From: Morchella semilibera
Taxonomy: Eukaryota > Ascomycota > Pezizomycetes > Pezizales > Morchellaceae
DNA length: 64,000 nt
Assembly (NCBI GenBank): GCA_009192285.1
Contig: CM018608.1
Coordinates: 824,201 to 888,200, forward strand
Direction of reading: 5' to 3'
The position numbers and the translations under genes are program-made. The notes beneath the pieces were generated by a model, which did not search any database, was not told where the DNA came from, and saw only the letters and a program-made list of their open reading frames with translations. Below are positions 25,780-58,500 of this stretch, one piece after another. Position 1 is the stretch's first letter; each line of letters opens with the position of its first letter.

Positions 25780-27569
25780 CTGACGCTCGTGAAATTGAGG
25801 TCAATGGCCTGCACTACACCCTTTCCAACGCTCTAAGCCTCTCAGCGTCCCCAAGTTCAACTTTCCACTCTCCCGCTGGATCTTACATGTCTCGTATAAC
25901 CCCCGTCCCTCAGCGAAGCAATTGAAGCCTTTCAACACCCAGGATATCAAGATCCTCCTCCTTGAGAACGTCAACATTGCTGCTAGGGAAATTCTCGAGT
26001 CTCAAGGCTACCAGGTCGAGTTCCACAAGTCTTCATTGCCTGAGGACGAGCTCATTGAGAAGATTCGGTTAGTCATTATTCACTCCCCCCCACCTTAATT
26101 TTTTTCTGCTTTGTCCTTTGATTCCGTCATGACCCTGGTCGCTTTTTTTTTTTGTGTGTTACTTCGCAACCCTTATCGATAACCGGAAAAACATAGACCC
26201 TGTCGCTAACATTTCTGTTGTAGTGATGTTCACGTAATTGGTATTCGCTCAAAGACCAAGCTGTCAAAGAATGTTTTGCGTGAGGCCAAGAACCTTCTTG
26301 TCATCGGATGCTTCTGCATTGGAACCAACCAGGTCGATCTCGAGTATGCCGCAAAGCATGGAATGACTGTTTTCAACTCTCCTTTCAGTAACTCTAGAAG
26401 TGTCGCCGAGCTCGTCATCGCCGAGATTATCGTTTTGGCTAGACAGCTTGGAGATCGCTCCAACGAGATGCACCAGGGCACCTGGAACAAGGTTAGCAAT
26501 AAGTGCTGGGAGATCCGTGGAAAGACTCTCGGTAGGTCACACCTCGAATACCGTCGATGCGAATATGTGCGCAGGACTAACTTAATAAAGGTATAATTGG
26601 GTATGGTCACATTGGATCTCAGCTCTCAGTTTTGAGCGAGGCTATGGGAATGAAAGTCATCTACTATGACGTTGTCCCTCTCATGGCCCTCGGATCAGCA
26701 AAGCAAGTCCCCACTCTCAAGGAACTTCTCAACCAGGCGGACTTTGTTACTCTCCATGTCCCGGAGCTTCCGGAAACCAAGGACTTGATAGGTGCCGAAC
26801 AGCTGTCATACATGAAGAATGGAAGCTATCTTATCAATGCCAGCCGTGGCAGTGTTGTTGAAATTCCCGCTTTAATGTGAGACATCCTTCAATAAGATAT
26901 ATCTGAATAACTTATTAAAACTTCATGCAGTGAGGCTATGCGCTCTGGGCACATTGCTGGGGCCGCTCTTGATGTCTACCCTTCAGAGCCGGCAGCCAAT
27001 GGGGACTACTTCAACTCGAACCTTAACTCTTGGGGTGACGACTTGAGGTCGCTCAAGAACCTTATCCTTTCTCCCCACATCGGTGGTTCAACGGAGGAGG
27101 CACAGAGTGCAATTGGTGTTGAGGTTGGCGAGGCATTGGTCCGCTACATCAACGAAGGAAGCACAATTGGTAAGGCCACAGTTATACCTCCTTCCTTTAC
27201 GCAATTTGCTAAACAATGCACTGTAGGCGCTGTAAACATGCCTGAAGTCACTCTTCGTGGGCTTACTCTGGCTGAGGAGAATCACGTCCGTGTCATCTTC
27301 ATCCACAGCAACAGGCCTGGTGTTTTGCGACAAGTCAACTCAATTCTCGGGGATCACAACGTGGATAAACAGATGTCCGACAGCCGTGGCGATGTTGCAT
27401 ACTTGATGGCAGATATCAGTGACGTCGACGCTGGTGACATCAAGAGCTTGTACGAGAGCTTGGAAAGCCTGAGCTGTAAGCCCCTAATATCTAGTGACCG
27501 TAATAGATTTGCCCGGATTCATAACTAACATTCTCCCTAGCCAAAATAATGACTAGAGTGCTTTATTAG
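25776..27569 (+). CDS. SER3: D-3-phosphoglycerate dehydrogenase
   Basis: First step of serine synthesis: NAD-dependent oxidation of 3-phosphoglycerate. Exons: 25776-26067, 26224-26531, 26591-26876, 26931-27169, 27227-27475, 27541-27569. Recognisable parts, in order: a fungal N-terminal tail (SLSASPSSTFHSPAGSYMSR), the substrate domain with VHVIGIRSKTKLS, the Rossmann motif GIIGYGHIGSQ, the catalytic-histidine segment SPHIGGSTEEAQ, and a C-terminal ACT domain (VRVIFIHSNRPGVLRQVNSI) for serine feedback. It ends SKIMTRVLY, matching yeast SER3/SER33. Near 25911-25918 the tail and the enzyme body are in different frames and need one extra base in an AA run; a sequence error is the simplest reading. 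The intron at 27170-27226 is a stop-free multiple of three. Confidence 0.93.
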
Positions 27570-29040
27570 AAGCTTGAAATTTTCATTTTCATCAAAGGTT
27601 TCTTGGGCTATTTAACACCGCCCATTAGGAAGAAACTCAGTACATATATGACTAGGGAAAAAAGTTGGGTATCGTTTCGCTCTGTTTGGGTTCATGTTTT
27701 CTTTTTTCTTTCTCTGTCTGTTTAGTTCTATAACCTATCAAAAGTGCTCATTTATCTGACACTTATGTACTGCCTATTGTTTCAACAAATTTGGGCCTTG
27801 ACCATCTTGTACCTTTTCGGGGCGGAACCCATAACAATGGTTCTATGCATTTTCGGGCGTTCGATTCAACTTGGTGGAAAATGGGAACCAGGTGTGTGGG
27901 TGGATGGAAAACATGTTGAGTTTGAGTAGTGAGAAATATAAAGGCGTTCAACACGGTAACAAATGGTAAAAGGTCTTCTAATGGATGGTGAGCAAGGTCT
28001 TGCTTGGGGTTATATCGGTTAGTCCGAGGGGAATGTGTTTTAAACATCATTGGCTTTTGCTAGCGATATGTGTGGCCCTTGGGCAGGTGTTTTCAGCTCA
28101 TTCTTATCAATTATCAAATCAATCAATCACAACAAGGCACTCGAGTACTAATATGATGCTCTATGGGCCCATTCCCCGACCTATCGATACACCGATGTGT
28201 TCTCCTTAGCCATAGGACCGGTTAGATTCACAAAGGGAGGGAACGGTTGCCTTATATCGGACAACTCTTCACCTCCACTCATTAAGCTTCATTGAGTCGT
28301 CCTTCCTAAAGATTATAACAACTCGGAAGAGTAAATACGACGCTTTACCCAATAGGTTCCATCGTTTTTTTCTTCTTCTTTCCTTTTCCATCCTTTTTTC
28401 TAAACGGCCGGGCGATCTAAGCCCTGTCTATCTAACATACATCATATACCCCGCCATCGCATCGGTTGGTGCAACTTTGACAATGTCTCACCGACGGCAT
28501 GCCCTCCCCTAAGTTTGGACCAGCCCATTTCTGCGACGTCGACGGACGGACGGGAGTGGATGGATGAATCTTGCCGATGGACAAACTTGAAAGCCTTGTA
28601 ATGTTTTACGTGGCAATGGTAAGGTAAGGGTAAAGATAAGGATAAGTGCACAACTACAAGTACATGAAGTACCTGGTAATACATGTACCGGGGGTGTCGG
28701 TATACTAGGTACTTATGAAGCTGGTGTTACTGTTGCTTGTGTCAATGGACTCGCCGAGGCACCTCCCCCCCCCCCTCCCCCTATTGACTTGGAGGTTCAG
28801 GGGCAAGAATGCAGTGCACATATGTACACGACTATACAGTGCTGTGTGTGATTGTTGAATAGTGATTGTTGACGGGTTAACTGAGGTTTATAGCCGTGCG
28901 ATCGAGTATGTGTAGCCCAGCTTGGGGGCCTTTTTCGGATCCTCGTCGCCGGGATCAGTACCTGCATGTATATACATGTGGGTACTTGTACTAGGTACTC
29001 CTCTACTCTAGCGAACTGCATGCAGTAGAGGTTACAGGTA

Positions 29041-29162
29041 CTAGTACTTTCTGACGTTTAGAAAATGGACCAATATTGCATACCATACTAAATTTTGGAC
29101 TTGGCGCGTATTCGTATGGCATGCAATAGCGGCCATTTTTCCAAATGTCAGGAAAGTACGAG
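29041..29162. mobile_element. Hairpin MITE, 122 bp
   Basis: The two halves are almost fully inverted copies. CTAGTACTTTCTGACG on the left pairs with CAGGAAAGTACGAG on the right, and similarity continues inward past AAAATGG and ATTGCATRCCATAC to a loop of roughly 25 bp. TA flanks both ends (29039-29040 and 29163-29164). Non-coding. Several mismatches between the arms suggest an older copy. Confidence 0.65.
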
Positions 29163-31613
29163 TATAGGGTCTGCTCTCCGGAGCCCATAACTAGTTGTGG
29201 TATGGTATTCCGAGATGGTTAGAGAGAGCTCGAAGCTCTCTGTTGGTGATAGCTTGCAGTGGTGATCTTAGGATGCCCCAGTGAGCATTGGCGGCATTTA
29301 GTTAGCTGCAGCTTCAGGGGCCTGTTACGCTCAAAGAAGTCTACTGTTACACCCTAGAGCTACCATGATGGCCTATGACTCATAATTAGCACCCGAGTGA
29401 TAATCTATGAGTAATTGACGAGCAGATAAAAACATGCGATCATATCCTGGTCACTTGCTTATATAATTATGTTGAGGGATTTTAGATGCCGGAGAGTATA
29501 CGTACAGCACTAGCTAGAGTGGCATGGGGTATGTATGGTAACTGGCGCGAAAGGTTATAGCACTTGACGAATGTGTATCTGGCTATGGTTTGACTTACGC
29601 ATTTACATGCTAAACGTTTATTCCCTTAAGGAGTTAAAACATATTATGTTTCGCTTCCATCATGGATTATCACTCGGCGAAAAGAGGAAGAATTACCATT
29701 TCTGAGCCTAGGAGGGTTATTCGCCTAAGACAAGGCTTTATAGCATAGAAACCCGCTGTTTATAGGCTTTTCGTGTACCGGAGTATTGTTTTGGGGGCTT
29801 TTATATATACACACCAGAGTTTTGTCCGCCCCGGGATTTTGTATGGAATAGGGCTGCTATTTTCCAGGAGTATGTTATGGGCTGTTTTGGAGTCTTACAA
29901 CATTTTTCTCTCCCGCAATATTGTCGCTGCGAGAGCATCGCCAAACACTGTTTCCCGCTCCTAAGCTTTACTGCATAATGTCATGGTGGTACTGTAGACC
30001 TCGACTTGAATAATTTAGTCTTTCAAGTTGCTACCAATATCCGCTAGATCTTTAGTTTGGAAGAAGTCCCATGAACCTGCGCCTATGTACGGGTGTGTAG
30101 CGCCCACTTACAGAGATTCTGAAGATTTGACCAATATTAAATGACGACATGCATACCTACACCGTACCAAAACATGCCAACATAAATGGGCGATACCCTC
30201 ACGCAGTTTATACCAGTCATGGTACATACCTAGTAGGGGGTATCATCACTCCTAGAACTGCTACTATTATATATGTACCGTATAGTCTCGCAATATGGAT
30301 ACAGCCGGGATCTAGATAGTTATGGCATTCTTATCACGAATACTCGCACGTTAATTGAGTCCTGAGAATGCACAACGTCACCATTTCTCGGGGCTTAACC
30401 GGCGTGCGAGTATATATATTCTTATAAGAAGTTCGCTTTGAGTTAAATTTATCCTTTCCTGAGTCAACCTTATTACTCGAATTTTCTCAAAAGAGCATAA
30501 CTACCACTAAAATAATTTCCAACAAAAAGACACCCGCTTCTATGAACAAGGAAGGAAAAGCCTTCGATTTTTGGCACTAAAGGCACTTCCCTAAAAGTGT
30601 TATTATTTATTATTTATTTATACACCATACTGCATGCAGCCCTTAGGCTATGGCAACCAACTACTCTCCCTAAAGGTACTCTTAGAAAGAGATGTTCCTA
30701 AACCCTCACAGAAACGGGCGGGGTCGGCCACAGCTATCACTAAAGCCGGTTTATCCTTATAAAATAGTCCTAAAATATGTCGAGAGTGTACTGTGCGTAC
30801 CACCTAGCAGACACCTGCTCCAGGGCTGCCCCAAGATATACCGCACAAGATTTAGAGCACAGCCTTGCAATGCGGAGTTCACTATTACTGGAACGAACTC
30901 TGCAGACTATCATCCGCAAAAGAAGTCCCAGAAAGTTGAAACTGATTGTGAAAGCCCCAACCTGGTTGAGACTTAGAAGGCCTGATTTTACGTCCCTCGA
31001 GATTGTTGAACCATTAATGGCTGTCACTATAACTCATAGCCTTGCAACAGTAAAACGGCTTTAAAGAGTGCATCTCGCGCGGTTACTAGCTAGCTATATG
31101 GCCAACCTTTAGCAAAGTCATGCTACCGTCTCAAGAGGGTCCTTGATTTTAGGGTAGAGAGCCAGTTCGACGATATTTATATTCTTACAAATCCAAAGTC
31201 TCCTGATTTTGCAGTTTTCTATTGAAATAGACCTATGGTCTTTGTGTGGAGCTGATAATATGAGGCTTTCGTCCGGTAAATTCTTCTAGTGACGATCTGA
31301 CTAGTACTGTAGGGATCACCACATGTCACTCGGACTCATAAGGGGCTGCATAATATTATTAATTTAACCTATCAATTAAAAGAGCCGCATTATGTCTCCT
31401 TGTGATTCACCCGAGCCTTCAGGATTGGTCCCCGCAATCAATATATAATGTAAAGCTTGATGCTCCAGAGGGATTTTATGCTCTTTCCTCTTATGACCTA
31501 GGAATATAATATTGCTCGTGTGCGGGTACAGCAAGCGGAGATCCCTGGAACCCTGTTCCACGGTTCTGGGAGAGTCTCAAACTTCCTAGCTGGGGGCGGC
31601 GATGTATCCCTTA

Positions 31614-31716
31614 GCCTGTCAGTAAAATGCTGACCCCTCTAGAAGAAGCAAATTTTGTGCGGCTTTACTAATAGGTCCCGCCATCTCCTTATATAGTGGG
31701 GTCAGCATTGACAGAC
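31614..31716. mobile_element. Short TA-flanked MITE, 103 bp
   Basis: Ends GCCTGTCAGTAAAATGCTGACCCC (the left arm carries a small insertion) and GGGGTCAGCATTGACAGAC are inverted copies, with TA on each side (31612-31613 and 31717-31718). The interior is non-coding. The call rests on the ends plus the target duplication. Confidence 0.6.
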
Positions 31717-32024
31717 TAACGAACAGTGCTTTTCAAATTGATAGACCGGCTGTTATTTACCAAATTTGCTTCAACCTGGTAATATTAAGTGCGAGTATTA
31801 TTATCGAACCAATCTAGCATCCAGTGTAATATAAGATTTTACCCTGAGCGCCAGACTTGTGCTTGTCGGTGGTCTAAGGCCTACTAGGTCTCTCCGCCTT
31901 TATGGAATAGTAATTGCTTAACCTTCAGAAGACTGGTGATGTCCTAAAATGGGTATTGCCGATTAGTATGCTAATTGCAAGTCATCTTGCCCGCTTTCAG
32001 CAAACAGTGCTGACGGTAACCTGT

Positions 32025-32440
32025 GGGTAGGTGACCCGTGGAGTCACTTGAGTGGATCACTCGGCTGAGAGGTATACGTACTTTCTAGATAAAACTAGAG
32101 AGAGAGAGAGAGATGAATCAAGGGAAGCCCGTTGGTAGTGTGGTACAGACCACACATCACACGAAAACCTCCAAGAAACAGTGCAAGAAACAAATCTTGA
32201 CATGCGGTTTATGTGGCGATGCTGACCGCAGCGGATTCTAACTCATTCTATCACACATGCGGTCGCCTTTCTTTCAGTCGTCGTGGTTAAGCGAGTCCTT
32301 CTTTTAGGAAGATCAACTGTTTCAGAGATTACCGCGCTTGTGATCACAGAGCGTTTTCTGGCAGCACAGGCTGCCCAGAATCTGGTACATGCAGTTGGCT
32401 TGCATTGTGTCTCAGTGCAACCATGGAATTCCCTGTGGGT
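32025..32440 (+). ncRNA. Hairpin-rich segment, possible structured RNA (strand uncertain)
   Basis: Several short perfect hairpins lie close together: GAGTGGATCACTC near 32050, GTGTGGTACAGACCACAC near 32138, and TCTGGCAGC-ACAG-GCTGCCCAGA near 32357. The latter two share the loop ACAG. TTGCA…TGCAA follows near 32402. There is no open frame. I do not recognise RNase P, MRP, SRP, U-snRNA or telomerase RNA motifs. It could equally be a degenerate repeat; the call is speculative. Confidence 0.2.
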
Positions 32441-33020
32441 AGAAACATCAGGTGTGGGGTAAAAGTTCTAAAGATAGGGAGCGAGTTTAGAGTACATAAC
32501 TTTACTCATATGATACTCCGATTCCTGGCAGCTCAAATTGCGCGGGGGCACAGTTGAGAGCGGATCGGGCGGCGAGATGTAATTGTTGACAGGTCAACTA
32601 TGATTGTGTTGGTACTGGTCAGAGGGCTCGTGTTGATAAGGAGAGAATGATCGTGGTAAGATGAAACTTGAATAAGAAAACAATCAAGCAAATGTATGTA
32701 CATACATACATGTAGCCATTTCTTGCTGGATACATGTAGGTGCAACGTGATCGATGTATTTGGACGTTTTTGAGAATCATTAGTGATCACTCGCAAGGTG
32801 ACACCCGAAACATAAGCGATGATGGAAGAGCCTCATAGCAGCCACGTATCAATATTAGGGAGAGCAATATCTCACCTCTGGAGGGTAAAAATGAGGTTTT
32901 ACACTTTGCTGCTTCAAAGGCTCATTATGCGCCGAGAACCCCTTAAGGTGATCTGAATTACCTGCGCATTTGGGCTATATGTGACTTGATGCGAAAATTT
33001 TCTATTAAAGAGGTCCCGCC

Positions 33021-33050
33021 ACCTCCGGTCATCTCCGGTCATCTCCGGTC
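33021..33050. repeat. Three tandem 10-bp units
   Basis: The unit AYCTCCGGTC is repeated three times head to tail with one difference. Non-coding context. Confidence 0.8.
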
Positions 33051-33270
33051 ATCTCTACGTAGGTACATGTTTTCATTCCCCCCTTATACACCTGTATACC
33101 GCCTTCAGGCAACCTTAAACTCATGCATGGTATTAGAGTAGAAGATATAAAGTGGGTATATACTTTAGAGTATATACATGTAGTGATACGAGGCCGAGGA
33201 GAGAAGATTTAACAACATGGAAATGATACCAAACGAGTAATAGCAGACCAGTTCAACATCTGAGGGACGA

Positions 33271-33330
33271 GTTGGACAGAAAGTCGAGCACTTGGACAGA
33301 AAGTCGAGCACTTGGACAGAAAGTCCTGCA
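33271..33330. repeat. Three tandem 20-bp units
   Basis: Three head-to-tail copies of STTGGACAGAAAGTCGAGCA. Downstream, near 33380-33412, the same word occurs in reverse orientation twice (TTTCTGTCCAAC and GACTTTCTGTTCAA). The whole 33250-33412 stretch could therefore be an inverted-repeat element whose left end expanded. Confidence 0.7.
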
Positions 33331-34988
33331 TCTCTTATTGGCTAAATCGTTGTAAGTCTTTGCCTAAAACAGCTAGAATTTCTGTCCAACCTGTCCGACT
33401 TTCTGTTCAATTGGCGTAGCTAAAACTCTCTATTGCTGATACGACACGGTGCTTGCCGGTATCTGTGAAGCAGGATCTCAAATTTACATATACGCTTACA
33501 AAGAGCCTGCGGTCTAGAAGCAATAATTTACAGAGTCCTCGACTTGATTTGTGGCCTTTGCGTTCTTGGCTGAAGATGCATTGCTAGCTGTCTATTGTGA
33601 CGAATCAAATACAATGTGACACAACTGGTGACCTTTTTTTTCTTTCTTTTTTCATCGTGGTTTCGTTGCGGTATTACGGTATAGAGAAGAGATATAATGC
33701 ATTTAGGGAGAGACCAGATACCAGAAGGTTTTAAGCTGACTGTATTTTTTCCTAGAATCTCTAGAGGTCTATTTTTCTCGCAGAATCGTCCCGGTTAAGC
33801 CGGATGTATTTCTACAAAAACAAGGGAGCTAAATTATAAAATCATACCATTTGAAGATTTTATGATGGTGGTAGCGATATTTATTAAACAAGCAGGTAAT
33901 CAGCAAAATACCTGGCTTGTATGTAAAGATCATCCTCTGAGTATCGGTCAGCGTCATTTTCTCGTCAACCAAGCTTCTGATCTGCAGAACTTATCGAACG
34001 GTAGTCCGATCATTGACCCTCTAGTTGATTTATAATGCGGTTTTCGGAAAAATCCCCGAGTCCATGAGTTTCTTTAGTACATCCCTAGTACCTGCATTAA
34101 CTCCTGCTACTTTACCTCTCTCTGTGATTATTTTTTTGTATTAGTTACCCGGATGAAGTCGGTATACCGGATAAATTACGTTAATTTTCAATACCGATCG
34201 ATTTGATTGATTACTTTGGTACGAGGGGGCACAACTCGATGGTCAAGTTTACACATAACCATCTATCTCATCGTGGGGAGTCCCGTGCAGGAACGGCAAG
34301 AAAGAGCGAGGTAGGAGGGAGGGATGGGGGTCCCCGGGGGGGGGGGGGCGGTGTGTGGAGGGAAGGTATGTTGTACCCCACACTATCCCCCATTTGATCA
34401 CCATTCGGACCATTCCCGCTTCCGCGCGTCACCGTAGAACGTGGTTCAGTGTTGTGTCAGTTAGTTCCTTTTGCTCTTCCGTGGGGGGGAGGGGGGGAGG
34501 AGTAGGATATGAAGAGAAAGGATGTTCATTTAACGTTCGGATTTCTTTGTTCTTTGTGAATTTCATCTGGATTTCCATCAGAAACAAGAGCAAAGAGAGA
34601 AGCCATTTTAGAGGTGTAGTGGGTTTGGTTGGTTGGTTGGTTGAATTTGGGTGGGTGGTTAGGCCATTAGGGTGTCTGCCCTCTGCCCCTTTGCCCTGCT
34701 TTAGAGCGCATGTAGTTGTCTGCCTGCCGTGCGAGTTTCATCCGCGCCTTTTTCTTTTTTTTTTATCTCCGCACAGCGGTCAGCAAGTTAAGCCTATGTA
34801 AAGTGTGCTGCAGCACCAGGATCCCCACTAAAGAGTTGGGGTGCGTACTTGTTCACTTCCAATCATTCATTACTCAGCGTTCATCCTTTAACCAAATCAA
34901 CGTCTGTCAACAGTCATCTACCTGTCCAATACAATACAGTTCAGTGACCTCAAACGAAGACGACCACAAAGAGGAAAAGGAAGAAAAA

Positions 34989-49012: not shown

Positions 49013-51385
49013 CTACAAAGGCCTCTCATAGCTGGCCTCGGCCGTATAATCCTTACCCGGGCCCTCAACCCGATACCTGACCCAGAACCGGCACAAGTCC
49101 GGCCCCGCCGGGCCAAAGACAAACCGGTAACTGGGCCAGTACCAGTCCTTGACGCACAGATGCTCGCTCCTGGCCTTCCACCCGCCAGGCATATCCACCT
49201 CCCCCGCCGCCTCACCGCCGCCGCCGGTCCCGGTCCCGGGGAGAAGAAACTCCAGCTCGTGGAAGAAGTAGTCGACGGCGCCGCCGGTGCCGTCCGGCTT
49301 GACGAACCACACGCTCAGCGCGTCCGCGCCCGGGTCGTAGCGGTATATGTAGCTGCGCGCGCCGGCCATGGTTGCGCCCGCGTCCGTGCGGAACGTGCCC
49401 GTCTCGGTGTAGAGGTACTCGACCACCTCGCCGCCGGGGGTCTTTTGCGGCGGGTTCGTTGTGTCGGGGTGGCGCGGCGCGCACGAGGTGGTGGTGGTGG
49501 ACGGGGAGGAGGAGATGGAGAATGTGGGCTCGCGCGGGCGGAAGGTTGCGGTGCCCGTGAAGGTTCCGCTTGGGAGGGCGGGGTTGCGGGATGTGATGCG
49601 CCGGCGGAGCGTCCACGTGCCCTGGAGGCCGCGGAAGACGGCCGCGGCGACGAAGCGCGTTGTCTGTGCGGGTGGCAGGATGGTCGCCAGGTCCGCGATT
49701 GTCTTCGACGCCTCTGCCGCTGCGTCTGCGTCCGGGGGCGCAAAGTGGGCGGGTATCATTGTGTTTGGGGTGGATTGTGACTTTGCCAGCGAGAGCGGGG
49801 CGGAGAGGCGGGAGCGGATGTCGTTGACGACGCCGATGTAGTCTGGTGCTGCCCATTGTGGGCGGAAGAGGGCGTCGGCTGGGTCGCTGCGCTTCTTGCG
49901 GGCGGCGGAGAGGTCGGCGATTGCGGTGTCTAGGTCCGTTTGTGGCGGCCAGGGGGCGGCGCCGGAGAATAGGGCGGCGAGCCAGCGGCCTTGCATCTCG
50001 ATGATGCCGAAGTAGGGGCCTTTATACATCCCCACGAAGCCGGCGGTCTGGTTGAAGGCTGGGTGCAGGCATTGGTTGTAGAGGAGGAGGGGCGCAAAGT
50101 TTGGGTCTTCCGGCACCGGGGACGAGGAGGAGGAGGATGTCAAGGCGGTGTAGAGGTCCTCGGGCAGGATCCTCTGGAGGGAGGAGGCGGGGTGGTACCC
50201 GGTCGCGAGGACGACGGCGTCGACGTCCGTGATCTCCCGCACGGAGTAGTCCTCCCCTTCCTCGAGGACGAGCGTGGTCCCTGCCATCCTCGAGACGCGG
50301 CCGAGGACGGGCGTGATGGCGCCGTCGCGCACAAAGCTGCCGTACGAGTCGGAGATGGCCACCCACGGCATCTGCTGCATGTATTTCTCCGTCACCTGCA
50401 GCGCGGGCGCCAGCGCCGCCTGGTCGTGGCCGACAAAGCGCTTCATCTTCTCGCTGACGAAGCGCGAGACTGCCTCGGGCGAGGGCGCGGGGTCCGGCGG
50501 GGGGTCGGCCCGCTCGTTGTAGTCGTACATGAGCAGGTCCAGCGGGAGGAAGCCCGGCGCGGTGGGATCCGCGGCGTTGGGGACCGCAAAGTACTTTGCC
50601 AGGTTCCAGAACGGGCGCGAGAACAGATGCACGATCTCCGGCTTCTCGGCCCCGGAGGGGGAGGAGGAGGAGAGGCGCAGCGCTAACTCGGCGGCGGCTT
50701 CAATGCCGGTCATTGACCCGCCCACGACCACAATCTTCCTCTTGCCGCTCGTGTCGAGCTTTGCAAAGTCGGCCGAGTGTAGGACCTGGCCCGTGAACCC
50801 TGACGAGTGCAGGCCCGGGATGGGGGGGACATAGGGCGCCGAGAAGAACCCGGAGCATATCGCCAAAAAGTCGAACGTCTCCGCCTCCACCCCCGGGTTG
50901 TCCCCGCTCCGCCACTCGACCCTCCAGCGGCCGCCGCCGTCCTCCCTTGCGATGCGCGTGACGGGGCACGACAGCTTCACGGCCGACTCGGGGATGTACT
51001 TTTCGCGGTAGCGCTCGAGGTACTTGCCCATCTCTGTGACGGACGGGAACATTGTCGTCGTCTCGGGCCAGGCAAGGTCCGAGAAGGAGCACGTGTAGCG
51101 CGAGTGGTTGAGCGTGAGCCCCGGCTCCAGCGCGACGATGTCGGCCGCGGTGGAGGCGGACCAGAGGCCGCCGAGGGTGGGTTTGGCCTCGAAGAGCGTG
51201 GGGGCGATGTTGCGGGCTATCATGGAGCGGGCAGTGCTCAGGCCGGATGGGCCGGCGCCTGGGGGAAGGTTAGTTTATGGACTCTCTGTAGATTAGGTAT
51301 AGCTATATCTATCTAATATTAATATAGAGAAATAGGGAGATATGTATTTACCTATAATGGCGACAGTTTTGCGTGCGCCTGCCAT
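49013..51385 (-). CDS. Flavin-containing monooxygenase fused to a DUF6314 domain
   Basis: Two exons, 51385-51352 and 51258-49013 (intron 51259-51351, GTAAAT...CAG), encode 759 residues. The first intron lies inside the FAD-binding GAGPSG motif (residues 12-17), reached through MAGARKTVAIIG. The FMO-type FTGQVLHS segment is near 166-173, the NADPH motif GGSMTG near 191-196 and ATGYHP near 363-368, so this is a class B FMO-like enzyme; its substrate is unknown. The last ~190 residues (from about LQGTWTLRRRI to YTAEASYERPL) match a fungal DUF6314 domain, a lipocalin-like beta-rich fold of unknown function, often appended to such enzymes. Codons are strongly GC-ending. The stop faces the SNF2-gene stop 183 bp away. 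Long antisense frames across it are GC-driven shadows. Confidence 0.88.
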
Positions 51386-52099
51386 AGTGTATATATTCCG
51401 ATATTGATACCGAGTCGAGCAGAAGAAAGCCCAGATGCTGCTGCCCGTCCTCGTGTGAGTGCTCGATATCCGTGGGCACCGAATTGTGATCTCTGCACTC
51501 GGTCTTAAATACCTATGAGTCTTCTTCCTTTTCTTTTCCCTTTCCCGTAGTCAGTCAGTCAGTCAGCAGCGGGGTTTTCGGATGTTTCGGAGATGCCGTC
51601 AGTCAGTCAGTCAGTCATGTTTCGATTCGCACGGGAATACGAAACCTGCAGCTGCCGTAGTAAGACGAGAGAAGACGACAGTCCAGTAAGAAGACGAGGA
51701 AAGAAATGTGAAGTCGACGGCGATGATTGGACGGATGGGATGGATGGGTTAGGGTTGTGGTCTGAGGATCAGTAATTATACGCTGCAGCGTTGTCTCGTG
51801 CACGGGATATCACTCGAGGGTGGTGACCTGATTAGTAACAACTAAAGCTGACATGGTTAAGTATTATCATTACTGGAGACGGTGGGTTAGTAGAGCTGCA
51901 GATAGACAAGAGAACCCCGCTGTAGATACGTATCAGGGCTGGGAAGGACAAACAAATTATTAATACTACATACCAACAGAAGAGATATGAATCCACACCC
52001 CCCTCCCCACAAGAAGGTCAGAGAACTAATATAATAATAGGACAGCCTAGCCACACTTGCTATTCACCACCTGTGCATCAGAGCTCGAAAACTCACAAT

Positions 52100-54030
52100 G
52101 TCACAGCTGCGAACAACAAGACGTGGCCACGCTTCCGGGTCATATATACATACATACTCAGCCGTATAACCAATATTTCGAGGGACGGGACAGGACGGAC
52201 AGCCTGGTGCACATCATGTCTGAGTATGTATTGTCCTACGCTTATTCAAGCTTGGACAGGCCAATCATCAGACAAGACATGCCCACGCCTCCTTCCTCTA
52301 AGGGGACAACCTACAGCAGGTCTTGTCGCTAGTACTGCGGGAGCTTTTGTCGACCTGCTCACACACATCCCAACGACAAGAGGTGGTGCACGTCTCCGTT
52401 TTCAAAACCCATAACCCCCCCCAAAAAAAGGGGCACCAACCCAACCCAACCAAACACACAGCTATATCTGTGCCAATCAAGACAGCCTGGTAGCACATCA
52501 TGTCAAATCAACAAACCTCCTGCAGATATTAGAGATCTCTGGATCGACAAGACGTGACCACGCTTCCTCGGTGCTAAATTAAAGATGGTTCCACTCGTAC
52601 ATGCGTTAGCAGTAGTGATAGTGATGGCCAGCTTAATCCCTCGTCCCAACCCAAGCAAAGCCCAAGCCAACCGATTCCAACCCCCCCCCTCAGAGCCGCT
52701 CCCATCCAAACCCAACCCAACCCAACCCAAGAAAAGCCCAAGCCCAAGCCCCCTAGAGCCTCCTCTTTCTACCCGAATATCAACAGTGGAGCACAAATAC
52801 CCCCCACACAAATTATTAGACAGCCTAGCACCATCTTGTCATGGGGTGCGATTGGCTATCAACAAAAACCATATCCACCGGCACGACAAGATGTGACCAC
52901 GCCTCCTTCCTTTCCCTCGAGATTGTAGCAATGGGACATATGCATAGGCACCCCTCATTCCCCCAGTACCGTAACAATGGGACTAGACACCCCACACAAA
53001 TTATTAGACAGCCTAGCACCATCTTGTCGTGGGGTCAATGGGCTACCAGCAGAGCCCATGGACACGGCCACGACAAGATGTGACCACGCCTCCTTCCTTT
53101 CCCTCGGAATTGTAACAGTGGGACATAGGCACCTCATTCCCCCAGTATCGTAACAATGGGACTAGACACCCCACACAAATTATTAGACAGCCTAGCACCA
53201 TCTTGTCATGGAGTGCGATTGGCTATCAACAAAACCATATCCACCGACATGACAAGATGTGACCACGCCTCCTTCCTTTCCCTCGGGATTGTAGCAATGG
53301 GACATATGCATAGGCACCCCTCATTCCCCCAGTACCGTAACAATGGGACTAGACACCCTATCAGACAGCCTAGCACCCATCTTGTCAGTCGTTGAGAGAG
53401 GTGGGCTACCGGTAGGTAACACACACACTCTTAAGCCCTGACAAGACATGGCCACGCTTCTTTGGTACCCAATACAAGAAGGTTCTACTCGTCTCGCAGT
53501 AGTAATAACCAACTTAGTCCCTCGTCCCATCCCAACCCAAAACCCAAAACCAAAACCCAAACCCAAGCAAAGTCCCAAGCCAACCAGTTCTAAACCCCCA
53601 GAGCCACTTCTTCTACCGAGCACCAACAATGGGACATAGACCAACAATGGGACATAGACACCTCACACACACATGGAGGTACCAGACAGCCTGGTAACCA
53701 TCTTGTCAGATGGGGAAGTGGTGAGCTACTGGGTCGACCATTAATGCAGCATCGACAAGACGTTACCATGCCTCCTTCCCTCCTTCCTGTCAGACACAAC
53801 ACCGTCATTAGTTAGTAAATGATTTTCAAGAAAAAAAAAACAGCAAAAAGAGAGAAGGAGGGAGAGATACATACCTAGAGGAGATTCGAGTTGCAGCTCT
53901 GGCCAAGGCCAGATTCTGAATCTGTCGTGTTCTGTGATGCCTAGTACACATCAAGTCAACTCTAGACCCGGTTTTCAGAAGAAAACCACAGTTTGGTCTG
54001 AGATATGACACGACGTGACCACGCTTCGAC
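52100..54030. repeat. Array of about ten related stem-loop repeats
   Basis: Each unit has a left arm AGACAGCCTRGYACCATCTTG, TC, a 40-60 nt loop, and a right arm GACAAGAYGTGACCACGC, then CTCCTTCC. Right arms occur near 52119, 52271, 52352, 52538, 52883, 53070, 53250, 53439, 53752 and 53972. Three units in the middle (starting about 52808, 52996 and 53173) are nearly identical and tandem, period 177-188 bp; outer copies are diverged. The arms can pair (CATCTTGTC with GACAAGATG), by up to 13 bp in the unit at 53019-53080. Two copies are followed by a CCCAA/CCCAAGCC-rich tract (52640-52760 and 53515-53590), so there is also a larger duplicated block. No protein frame is conserved across units. 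Confidence 0.8.
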
Positions 54031-54858
54031 ATGTTGTTGTTGTAGACGGAGGAGGAAGGGGAAAGAAGGGGGTATTTATAGTGCAGCATCTTTCTTGTGC
54101 AAGATCTTTGTTGTGCGGGGGCTTGGCCGTCTGGTCTGTCGGAGGGTTAGGGCAAGGGACGGGTCCAACCCTCGGGTGGTGGGGCGATGGATGGACTCTA
54201 CACGCACTTGGGTACGCAGAATCTGATAAGGAGATCTTGCTTATCGGACTCGATTCTCAAGCACCGAGGACGAGCTAGGACGTACGAGTCGAATCGCCCT
54301 ATGGGGCGGCACCTCTAGATCTTATAGCGGTAATTGGCTTATGAGGTTATCGGCTCTCGAGCTATCGTAGATATGAATTCTCCTGTATGTATATAAGGGG
54401 TACACGTACACGCCTATCAAAAGGGTACGGCTTTACGCCCTCAGGCTTATCTCTATCTTCGCGATCGATCGTCTGTCAATAAAACGCCGCCCCCCGCCCC
54501 AACCTGGCATGGCTCTACTAACAGTTCCCGTTGTCCCCCATTCCTCTATTATGGGGCAGCAATTGGCAGACGAAGGGCCGGATGGGGCGATTCGGCTATA
54601 TGAGTGGGTTCCGATGGCGCATCATGGGGTATCACTCGCGTGCCAAGAGGGTGTCCGCCCCGCCCCATGCCCTCGCTGTAGATCCTCAAGGTGGCCCTGA
54701 GTGTGTCTCGGTGTCCCCGGGGTCAGTGTAGTCCACGAAGCGCATCAAGGCGGAGAAGACGGCGGTGTATTGGGTTTCCTCTCCGTATAAGGGATCTGCG
54801 TTGGGTTGCTTAATTAGTTCGAGCCATATATATACACTGGCCTATGCCTCGATCGAGC

Positions 54859-55513: not shown

Positions 55514-58500
55514 CTACAAAATACCCCACCCCTCCTTCCCAGCCTCCACATTCGCAATAACCACCGCCTCCGCCCCAGCCCTAACCTCCACGCTCCTCTC
55601 ACCAGTCCACTCAACGGCCACCACGCCCCTCCACGCCCTCGCGGCGCCCAGCGCCTCCCTCCTCCTCGGCATCAGCACCCCCGGCGGGCCATCACTCCCG
55701 CCAATGAAGCTCAGCAGCCCACTCGCAAACCTCCACACGAGGACGCACCCCTCCTCCACGTCCACCCCAAGCATGTACCTTCCGTCCGCGCTGAAGGCCA
55801 GCCAGGCCGCCATCCCCACGTGGCCCTGCAGCACATTCATCTCGCACGCGGCCTTGAGGTCGAAGATGAGGACGGCGCCGGGCGAGACGGAGAGCGCGAG
55901 GCGCTGCGTGGGCCGGTGGAAGGCAACGCCCGGGTAGGCGTCCACGAGCTCGTTGACGAGCTCGGTCACGGCCGGGAGCACCCGCTCGCGCAGCGGCGAC
56001 GACGGGTCCAGGATCTTGACCACGGCGGCGACGAGGAGCGTCAGTACGTCGCGGAGGAGGAGCGGGTCGGTGCGCACGATGGCGGTGACGATGCGCATTG
56101 CGGAGACGCAGATGGTGGTGGCGGTGGAGAGGGTCGCGGCGGTGGATTGCGTCGGGGAGGAGGTGCCGTGGGCGATGTTGTTGGCTAGGCCTGAGCCTAG
56201 CAGGGGCGAGTTTGTGCGGGCGATGGAGAGGATGCAGGTGTGTAGGGTTTGCCGGCGGGAGTCGGGGAAGGAGTCGGGGCTGGTGGAGGAGATGCGGATG
56301 AGGATGTGGATTACCTGTATATATTGTTAGTAGAGAAGACCGGAGGAGGGGAGGGACTTGCTTCAGCAGGGTCAAATAGGGACTGGAAGATAGCCCATCC
56401 ATCCCCGACGAGCTCTATGGCCGTATCCTGAAAGTGAGGATTCGAATCACCGAGTAGCAGCTCCACCGAGAGCGCAACATTCTTCTTGACGCTGGTCCGG
56501 GGCGTTAGAGTTTCCCATTTCCGGTAATATCAATCATTGACATGCCCACTCACCTCTGATCAATCTTGTCCGCATAGTCCGCCGTCAACTTTCCCAAGAT
56601 CACGACGCTGCGGACAATGTCTTTCGAGGAATACAGTTCCGGCGGGACCAGGACGGGGACTGTGCCTCTTGTGTCAATTATGATCCTTCAGGAGGAGGAG
56701 GAGGAGGAGGGAATACTCACGGAACCTCGACCAGTAAGAGACGGCGTCGTCCCGCCGTTCGTCCGTCAGGCGCCGCATGCAAATCTTCATGAGCATCCTC
56801 GCGGTCTTCCGGACGAGTACTAAAGAAAAAAACCAAAAATCAGCAAAACTATCATTTCCCCCGGACGAACGACGCCATACAATTCCGGTCCATCCAATAC
56901 TTAGCAAAGACGCCCAGCGCGGGGGCCCTCCCCGCGCCATCCAGCTGGCTATTCTCCACGGCCCTCTCCACAACCGTCTCAAAGACCGCCTCGTCGTCGT
57001 CGTCCCTCCCCGCGGCCGCCAACAGCCCGCCCACCAGCGCCAGCCCGGCCAGCAACACAATCCCCGTGACGGTGCCGCCAACGCCCCACAGGCGGTCCAG
57101 CGCCCCCGGCGCCAGCAACGAGACATGTTTCCCCGCGCCAATCTGCCCGAGCACGGCGGGCCCGCCCCCGCCCCCCCTCCTGCGGAAGAAGTAGCCCTCG
57201 ACGGCCGTGCGCCACGGATAATCGTCCTGCCGGGGCCACCCCAGCAGCTCGTCGGCGCCGCCAGGGACCAGCGCCGTCAGCAGCGACCGGGCCGCCACCA
57301 GCGCCGGGTGATTCCCCACCACCACGCGCTCGGCGCGCCTCGTGCGCTGCCGCGCAACGTCCACCGCGCCCTGAAGCGTGTCCAGCACGCCCTTGACGTC
57401 CACCACCATGGCCGGCAGGCCCTCCTCGCAGAACCGCAGACACGCCTTCACGGCCGCGTCCATGCCCACGGGGCCTTCGTTCTCCTCCTCGCCGTCCTCG
57501 TGCACGTCGTGCTCGAAGGCGCCAACCCGCACCTCGTGCCACCCCTCGTCCGCTAGGTCCGCCGCATACACCCCCCCACCCCCGGCTGTTGTGGCAGCGC
57601 TGCCACGGCTTGACGGCGGCGGCGGCTTCAGCACGCCGCCCTCCTCCTCGCCGAGATCCCACTCGCGCCGCGCCCGTCCTCGTATGTCAGCAGCACCACG
57701 TTCTGCGCGGGCTTGGTGGCCACGGAGGTCAGGTGGAGGTAGTCGTGCGAGGGGAAGGTTGCCATGATCCTTGCGCGCTCCACGTCCACGATGCTCGCCG
57801 TGCCATCGGCGGCCGAGACGAAGAGCGTGGAGCGCAGGCGCTTGCCCAGCGTTGTCGGCAGGATGTTTGCGGATGCGATTGGCGTCGCCGAGAGCGGGAG
57901 GCGCCGCCGCGGCGGCTGCAGGCCCGGCGCGTCGACGATGAAGAGCTCGCCCGCTGTGGTCCCCACCACTAGGTATTCTTTGGCCGTGGCGTGGCGGCCC
58001 GGCGGCGTGTAGTCGCCGATCTTGACGCGGCGGAGGAGGCAGATGCGGGCGGTGGTGGCCGGGAGCGGGATCTGGGCGGTCGGCGCGGCGTAGGAGAGGA
58101 GGAAGGTGGAGAGGGTGTGTAGGTGGAGGACGGGGCCGTGGGCGAAGACGAGCAGGTTGGCGAATATGGCCGAGCATGTACATATTGGCTCTCCTGTGTC
58201 TTCCGGGGGAGCCGGGGCGAATAGTACTAGAGGGGCGGAAATTTGAGAAATGCGGGTTAGTCGATCATTGACACTGCATATATATATCACAAGTAAAAAA
58301 AAAGGATGTTTTTGAGTAATTGATGTATTTATATTAGAGATTAGAAAAAATATATGCACACCTTCTTTATTGTCACTCCATTCGATATCACCGCTGCTGC
58401 CGTCTGTGAGCGAGAACGACCCAACAGCCAGGCCGCCCTGCGGGGACCTTTCGCCCGCCCCCTTATCCGGGGAGAACGCAGCCACAACACCCCAATGGCC

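Follow-up and report, generated by a model that had tools for sequence, protein, structure and literature searches.

A tandem array of ten hairpins in Morchella semilibera: probably a non-coding RNA gene and a candidate polycistronic small-RNA precursor

In plants, homologous polycistronic microRNA (miRNA) clusters of the rice MIR395 type are described as carrying up to eight copies of one family within 497 bp, each copy in its own stem-loop (PMC2812943). In fungi, the annotation behind reported microRNA-like RNAs (milRNAs) is often weak: according to a review, fewer than half of 1727 reported loci met basic standards. None of the words cluster, tandem or polycistron appears in the main text of that review (PMC9757828). 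In Neurospora, the four major milRNAs are described as made by RNA polymerase III (Pol III), with a stretch of T following the milRNA (PMC3547838). Here we describe an array of ten tandem hairpins, u1 to u10, at positions 52041-54028 of a 64-kb window (the whole stretch of DNA analyzed: 64,000 nucleotides of contig CM018608.1 of the filamentous fungus Morchella semilibera); judged from its sequence, it probably represents a minus-strand gene for a non-coding RNA.

Like the plant clusters, the array consists of several tandem hairpins on one strand that arose by local duplication (PMC2812943), but it is fungal, comprises ten hairpins over 2 kb and is known from sequence alone. As in the fungal mi/milRNA loci reviewed in PMC9757828, its hairpins are intergenic with a stem of about small-RNA size, and like the Neurospora milR-1 locus (PMC3547838) it has a TATA-like element. 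Unlike the four major Neurospora milRNAs as described there, the units are not followed on the minus strand by any run of four T within 20 nt; on the plus strand there is one such run, after u3, and we rejected the idea that each unit is a separate Pol III gene. No description of the array was found among the literature matches listed, and the letters of its arm sequence, entered in several spellings, matched nothing in the literature searched, most subscription papers being outside the scope of both searches.

The units share one orientation (minus strand) and are separated by gaps of 12-251 nt. Each is 87-98 nt long and has a 5' arm of 22 nt and, in most units, a 3' arm of 22-24 nt, both common to the array (the 3' arms of u1 and u10 are shorter as delimited in the arm measurement), enclosing an interior of 41-56 nt; a conservation profile that left out u5 and u7 shows a sharp-edged block of 21-22 nt in the 5' arm. 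The original prediction of about ten copies with shared pairing arms was thus borne out. In the order of a minus-strand transcript, with covariance-model scores and minus-strand folding z-scores in brackets, the hairpins are u10 at 53938-54028 (61.6 bits, z -7.10), in which the outer end of the 3' arm deviates from the GGCTGTC of most units; u9 at 53685-53775 (75.3 bits, z -1.52), the weakest fold and the sole unit that folds better on the plus strand; u8 at 53364-53461 (77.0 bits, z -4.35); u7 at 53186-53272 (84.8 bits, z -5.33); u6 at 53007-53093 (83.4 bits, z -4.98); u5 at 52819-52906 (88.6 bits, z -4.76); u4 at 52481-52567 (67.9 bits, z -3.83); u3 at 52305-52396 (58.2 bits, z -2.81), which has the most divergent arms, with several double changes; u2 at 52198-52292 (68.2 bits, z -4.72); and u1 at 52041-52136 (50.6 bits, z -8.11), a hairpin of 39 bp with a minimum free energy (MFE) of -52.0 kcal/mol on the minus strand and -24.9 on the plus strand.

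Within the window the repeat family appears confined to the array. An 18-nt arm core, GCGTGGTCACGTCTTGTC, allowing up to 3 mismatches, has nine matches in the window, all within the array and all on the minus strand, where dinucleotide shuffles lead one to expect 0.03; u3, the tenth unit, lies outside these nine and was placed by eye, its score coming from the ten-unit covariance model. That model recovers all ten units in the window at 50.6-88.6 bits, scores that are high by construction because the units are its training set. The informative part is the absence of others: no other credible copy was found in the 64 kb, the best match outside the array reaching 11.1 bits (E 0.38), and the next matches are mostly array hairpins read on the plus strand, at 16.6 bits or less. 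In viral contigs the arm pattern had no match, and in prokaryote contigs it had three, all in Hoeflea, which we estimate to be about the chance level for 257 Gb. Units u5 to u7 arose by recent tandem triplication (period 179-188 nt), which leaves about eight independent copies; all the repeat data come from one locus in one genome. The spacers downstream of u4 and u8 are also related (52546-52659 and 53440-53540): pieces are 79-80% identical at offsets of 894 and 881 nt, with 62% identity over 150 nt including gaps, and the array may therefore also have expanded by duplication of a larger block.

To assess pairing in the lower stem we used a plain MAFFT alignment with 17 pairs chosen by the analyst and 500 shuffles. 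Paired letters occupy 92.9% of the 170 cells, compared with 88.6% (standard deviation 1.1) in shuffles, none of which was as high, and with 26.5-49.7% when the register was slid. Both partners change with pairing kept at 5 of the 17 pairs, where shuffles give 1.3 and none reaches five, and the covariation score is 0.265 against 0.190 (equaled by 1 of 500 shuffles); further pair types are not in excess on this alignment (14 against 12.9, 149 of 500). On the same alignment RNAalifold predicts 22 pairs, 7 of them with two-sided changes. A hand-made alignment of 20 pairs, which has bulges placed and is biased towards structure, gives at least two Watson-Crick types at 6 pairs and all four at one pair; in the eight units that remain without u5 and u7, 142 of its 160 cells pair, the column-shuffle maximum being 138 (none of 5000 reaches 142), and swaps of whole arms do as well in 1 of 5000. 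The fourth lower-stem position never pairs, being G-G in nine units and A-G in u9. The claim that pairing is kept while letters change therefore stood up when the copies were aligned and tested for covariation, and every pair that had been named at the inner side of the CTTGTC/GACAAG core (plus strand) is present: G-C at 53019 and 52324, A-T at 53201 and 53385, and T-A at 52217.

The two strands differ clearly in their ability to fold. The minus strand is the more stable in nine of the ten units, with a mean z-score of -4.75 compared with -2.49 on the plus strand (200 dinucleotide shuffles per unit), while 115 random windows (60 shuffles each) gave means of -0.05 and -0.01 with a standard deviation of 1.2 and minima of -3.64 and -3.96. 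In every unit except u9 the minus-strand z-score is -2.8 or lower, which, with the 21-22-nt block of the 5' arm, agrees with the stable hairpin and duplex of about 20-24 nt expected of a milRNA precursor. We rejected a plus-strand RNA, since nine of the ten units fold worse on that strand. Read on the minus strand, the lower stems contain G-U in 30 cells and A-C in none; column-wise shuffling of the 3' letters yields 3.4 A-C (P 0.0007). The tolerance of G-U and avoidance of A-C, for which folding in DNA offers no reason, favors RNA over extruded DNA. A strand-blind hairpin finder, which makes no distinction between G-U and A-C, counts 38 G-U and 3 A-C in the array on the minus strand, compared with 1066 and 1023 in 485 hairpins of the background, which are mostly weaker; the excess (38 of 41) has P 0.004 against shuffles of the same units and, with u5 and u7 left out (31 of 34), P 0.016. 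The shuffled units already yield 75% G-U because the array is GT-rich on the minus strand. We did not use a raw MFE scan of the window, which was topped by GC-rich stretches. These results uphold the view that the folded form matters, and they narrow the earlier alternative of RNA or extruded DNA, which had named no strand: RNA on the minus strand is favored and extruded DNA is not. The A/C mismatch described at 52830 in u5 as an intermediate is present on the plus strand, but on the minus strand it is a G-U wobble and no mismatch. We conclude that selection at the RNA level very probably acts on the minus-strand fold.

The original prediction held that the loops vary freely, a view that the data contradict. 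The interiors are mostly dissimilar (39 of 45 pairwise identities fall within 0.39-0.54), but the 5' and 3' halves of the same interior pair at -14.66 kcal/mol compared with -9.62 when halves are swapped between units, a difference equaled in 1 of 20,000 permutations; with u5 and u7 dropped the energies are -15.29 and -9.54 (6 of 20,000). The z-score of the loop alone is negative on the minus strand in all ten units (mean -1.55, compared with -0.80 on the plus strand). In the MFE structure of the whole presumed 2075-nt minus-strand transcript the inner lower stem forms in nine of the ten units, u8 lacking the outer part, and the total is -790 kcal/mol compared with -554 on the plus strand, a difference to which composition contributes. 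As modeled, then, each unit is one long hairpin resembling a miRNA precursor (pre-miRNA), with a conserved lower stem and a paired, unit-specific upper part.

The recent duplicates permit a closer look at how these parts change. All 44 arm positions agree between u5 and u6, and 5 of 92 spacer positions do not. In the interiors, 13 of 43 aligned positions have changed, more than in the spacers (Fisher P 0.0002); the unchanged arms suggest constraint on them. Between u5 and u7 no such excess is seen in the interior: 40 of 44 positions are identical there and, counting gaps, 89 of 100 in the spacers that follow. With u6 as the single odd copy, diversification and replacement by recombination cannot be told apart.

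Signals around the array suggest one minus-strand transcript, separate from the neighboring gene. A TATA-like box, TATAAATA, lies at 54073-54080 on the minus strand, about 45 nt upstream of the start of u10 at 54028, with a CT-rich stretch between; the motif occurs six times on the minus strand of the window and not at all on the plus strand. Two predicted spliceosomal introns on the same strand, both matches to consensus only, flank u9 to u1: intron 1 at 53787-53874 (GTATGT...ACTAAC...CAG, 88 nt), between u10 and u9, and intron 2 at 51873-51973 (GTATGT...CTAAC...CAG, 101 nt), after u1. Signatures this strict number four in the window on both strands, where mononucleotide shuffles lead one to expect 1.0. 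No frame is open through the units: a stop falls in 24 of the 30 unit-frames, and the six open ones (two in u3 and one each in u6, u8, u9 and u10) share no common frame.

From these elements a working model can be drawn. Transcription would probably start near 54040, 33-40 nt below the TATAAATA box, and the transcript would run through the ten tandem hairpins to about 51970. In the computed structures each 87-98-nt unit would fold into a conserved lower stem (the 'handle') that spans some 22 nt and includes the fixed G-G mismatch, and a paired, unit-specific upper part of 41-56 nt, least convincingly in u9. Dicer would then process the polycistronic precursor into small RNAs, in the manner of the plant homologous miRNA clusters, and the 21-22-nt block of the 5' arm has the size of a Dicer product. 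With their constant 22-nt arms the ten units might produce a single small RNA in tenfold dose, or the arms might be a recognition handle for unit-specific products of the upper stem. Because the units, unlike the Pol III milRNAs of Neurospora, are followed by no run of four T on the minus strand, a hairpin precursor made by RNA polymerase II is the best guess. We thus read the array as a fungal polycistronic, milRNA-like hairpin precursor, whose most likely use would be as a substrate for Dicer, and hold this reading with about even confidence; that one spliced transcript spans the array is a prediction for which our judgment is similarly balanced, and Dicer processing of the hairpins is predicted a little more tentatively.

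Several observations weigh against this reading or weaken its support. In the lower stems, column shuffles give as many G-U cells as are observed (30.0 and 30), so only the absence of A-C is unusual there, and in the upper stems G-U (12, with 3 A-C) is at the level set by composition (P 0.46); we dropped the upper-stem excess as independent evidence on the strand, since shuffles of the GT-rich units are already so rich in G-U. The covariation term of RNAalifold is small, -0.63 of -20.2 kcal/mol, and gene conversion could be what keeps some arms the same from unit to unit. A strand-blind hairpin score equal to that of the array occurs elsewhere in 33 of 5143 overlapping windows, and hairpin strength alone is therefore not special. 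The fold of u9 is weak on the minus strand and is missing from the full-length MFE structure, the MFE index is at least 0.85 (a threshold taken from general knowledge) in just six of the ten units, and sites complementary to the units elsewhere in the window are no better than those for shuffled units (four shuffles per unit).

The main rival is a structured long non-coding RNA (lncRNA) whose ten hairpins are repeated platforms for a double-stranded-RNA-binding protein, as scaffold or decoy, without Dicer processing. Protein-binding RNA sites often carry a fixed internal mismatch, and the handle has one; a constant stem with varied upper parts would suit a platform, and the evidence from strand and covariation speaks for it just as much. 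The A-repeat of XIST, a structured-lncRNA repeat module of tandem hairpins, likewise combines a conserved core with variable surroundings, although kingdom and context differ. A platform alone leaves the paired state of the dissimilar upper parts unexplained; otherwise the two readings are indistinguishable here, and we consider the platform unlikely, though a serious contender. It is improbable, by our estimate, that the FMO-DUF6314 gene downstream carries the array in a long and inefficiently translated 5' leader, or in an upstream tandem transcript, and could be switched by it. Strand and orientation are shared and predicted intron 2 lies between array and gene, but the gene has its own promoter-like TATTTAAG at 51511 and its own ATG at 51385, about 2.6 kb from the presumed start of the array.

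The remaining readings need no functional RNA fold. Inverted repeats at the DNA level could have gained compensatory changes by template switching at quasi-palindromes during replication, with copies made by tandem duplication, which is evident for u5 to u7. As set out in PMC8794818, one template switch can both make and repair a hairpin stem, and template switching can account for asymmetric base-pair frequencies in RNA stems; the strand asymmetry is therefore weaker evidence against this reading than it would seem. The reading nevertheless gives no reason for 30 G-U without A-C in the lower stems on the minus strand or for strand-dependent z-scores, and the identical arms of u5 and u6, beside differing interiors and spacers, suggest constraint; we give it only a slim chance. 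Template switching may still be a mutational route that keeps stems paired, and since it could also explain asymmetric pair frequencies (PMC8794818), origin and selection are not mutually exclusive. A more familiar DNA-level source would be a cluster of miniature inverted-repeat transposable elements (MITEs). These elements have short inverted arms, multiple copies and target-site duplications, and the array shares the multiple copies and imperfect inverted arms. It differs in lacking target-site duplications (nine units lack any flanking direct repeat as long as 3 nt, and u10 has one of 3 nt; among random segments, 335 of 500 have at least 3 nt), in its single orientation and restriction to a single locus in the window, and in its preserved interior pairing; the outermost ends also pair less well than the inner arm. 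The suspicion that the arms are terminal repeats of a transposon thus found no support, and a MITE cluster is very improbable. We virtually dismiss a decayed repeat-protein gene, an idea prompted by the CAACAACAACATG that precedes u10 and by (K/R)RGH(V/I)LS, readable in several units. In its favor, the codons from an ATG at 54032 to predicted intron 1, 52 in number, are free of stops, six of the unit-frames are open, and the longest stop-free stretch on the minus strand has 113 codons; but the plus strand has a longer one (137 codons), the interiors vary in length, the RGHVLS frame is stopped in eight of the ten units (all but u3 and u10), and covariation between the arms would be unexplained.

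The array adjoins the FMO-DUF6314 gene (49013-51385, minus strand, outside the array), which has a likely first intron; in a single reading frame at 49013-51223 an N-terminal part like flavin monooxygenases of the FMO type is fused to a DUF6314 domain. On the other flank is a weak WD40-like reading frame (55514-56098, minus strand), below curated cut-offs. The window also has split reading frames for SPT6, SNF2-type, Mob1, methionyl-tRNA synthetase and BCD1-like proteins; the best solved relatives of its SPT6, SPT6 chains, are presumably yeast proteins. No Rfam match in the window reaches the gathering threshold (four lie far below it, E 3-6.1), and a tRNA scan of the window found none. A scan for bacterial promoters and terminators, not meaningful for a eukaryote, gave no promoter and two terminator-like sites, the chance level.

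Other inverted repeats lie elsewhere in the window, many of them at 27528-34355, nearly 7 kb between stretches that bear open reading frames (ORFs) and itself without a listed ORF of 100 amino acids. A separate hairpin at 30340-30413, unmatched by the array model, has 29-nt arms that are 76% Watson-Crick complementary and a 16-nt loop. Folded as plus-strand RNA it has 27 bp with one 2x2 internal loop (MFE -40.7 kcal/mol, z -7.69), compared with -27.8 and -2.85 on the minus strand; as modeled, it is strand-asymmetric and pre-miRNA-like. Another long hairpin in the same ORF-poor gap, at 29053-29147, has z-scores of -5.92 on the minus strand and -3.54 on the plus strand. At 33262-33413, three tandem copies of the 20-nt unit TTGGACAGAAAGTCGAGCAC, the third 85% alike, and inverted copies downstream can fold back.

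A further reading of the array is that it joins a constant handle to a variable payload: the 22-nt lower stem would be a fixed handle for Dicer or another enzyme, and the upper stems would be diversifying guides. The basis for this is the comparison of u5 with u6, together with interiors that pair best with themselves; it depends on u6, as the u5-u7 pair is without such an excess, and we regard it as quite unlikely. If true, it would give a fungus a genomic store of differing small RNAs, enlarged by duplication and diversified in place, perhaps aimed at host genes, viruses or genomic parasites. The repeats of a single locus in a single genome are here the basis on which structure, covariation and strand are argued. 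Should the array be transcribed and processed by Dicer, the plant miRNA clusters would have a fungal counterpart, and one could ask why the handles are fixed while the interiors vary, in at least one pair of copies beyond the neighboring spacer.
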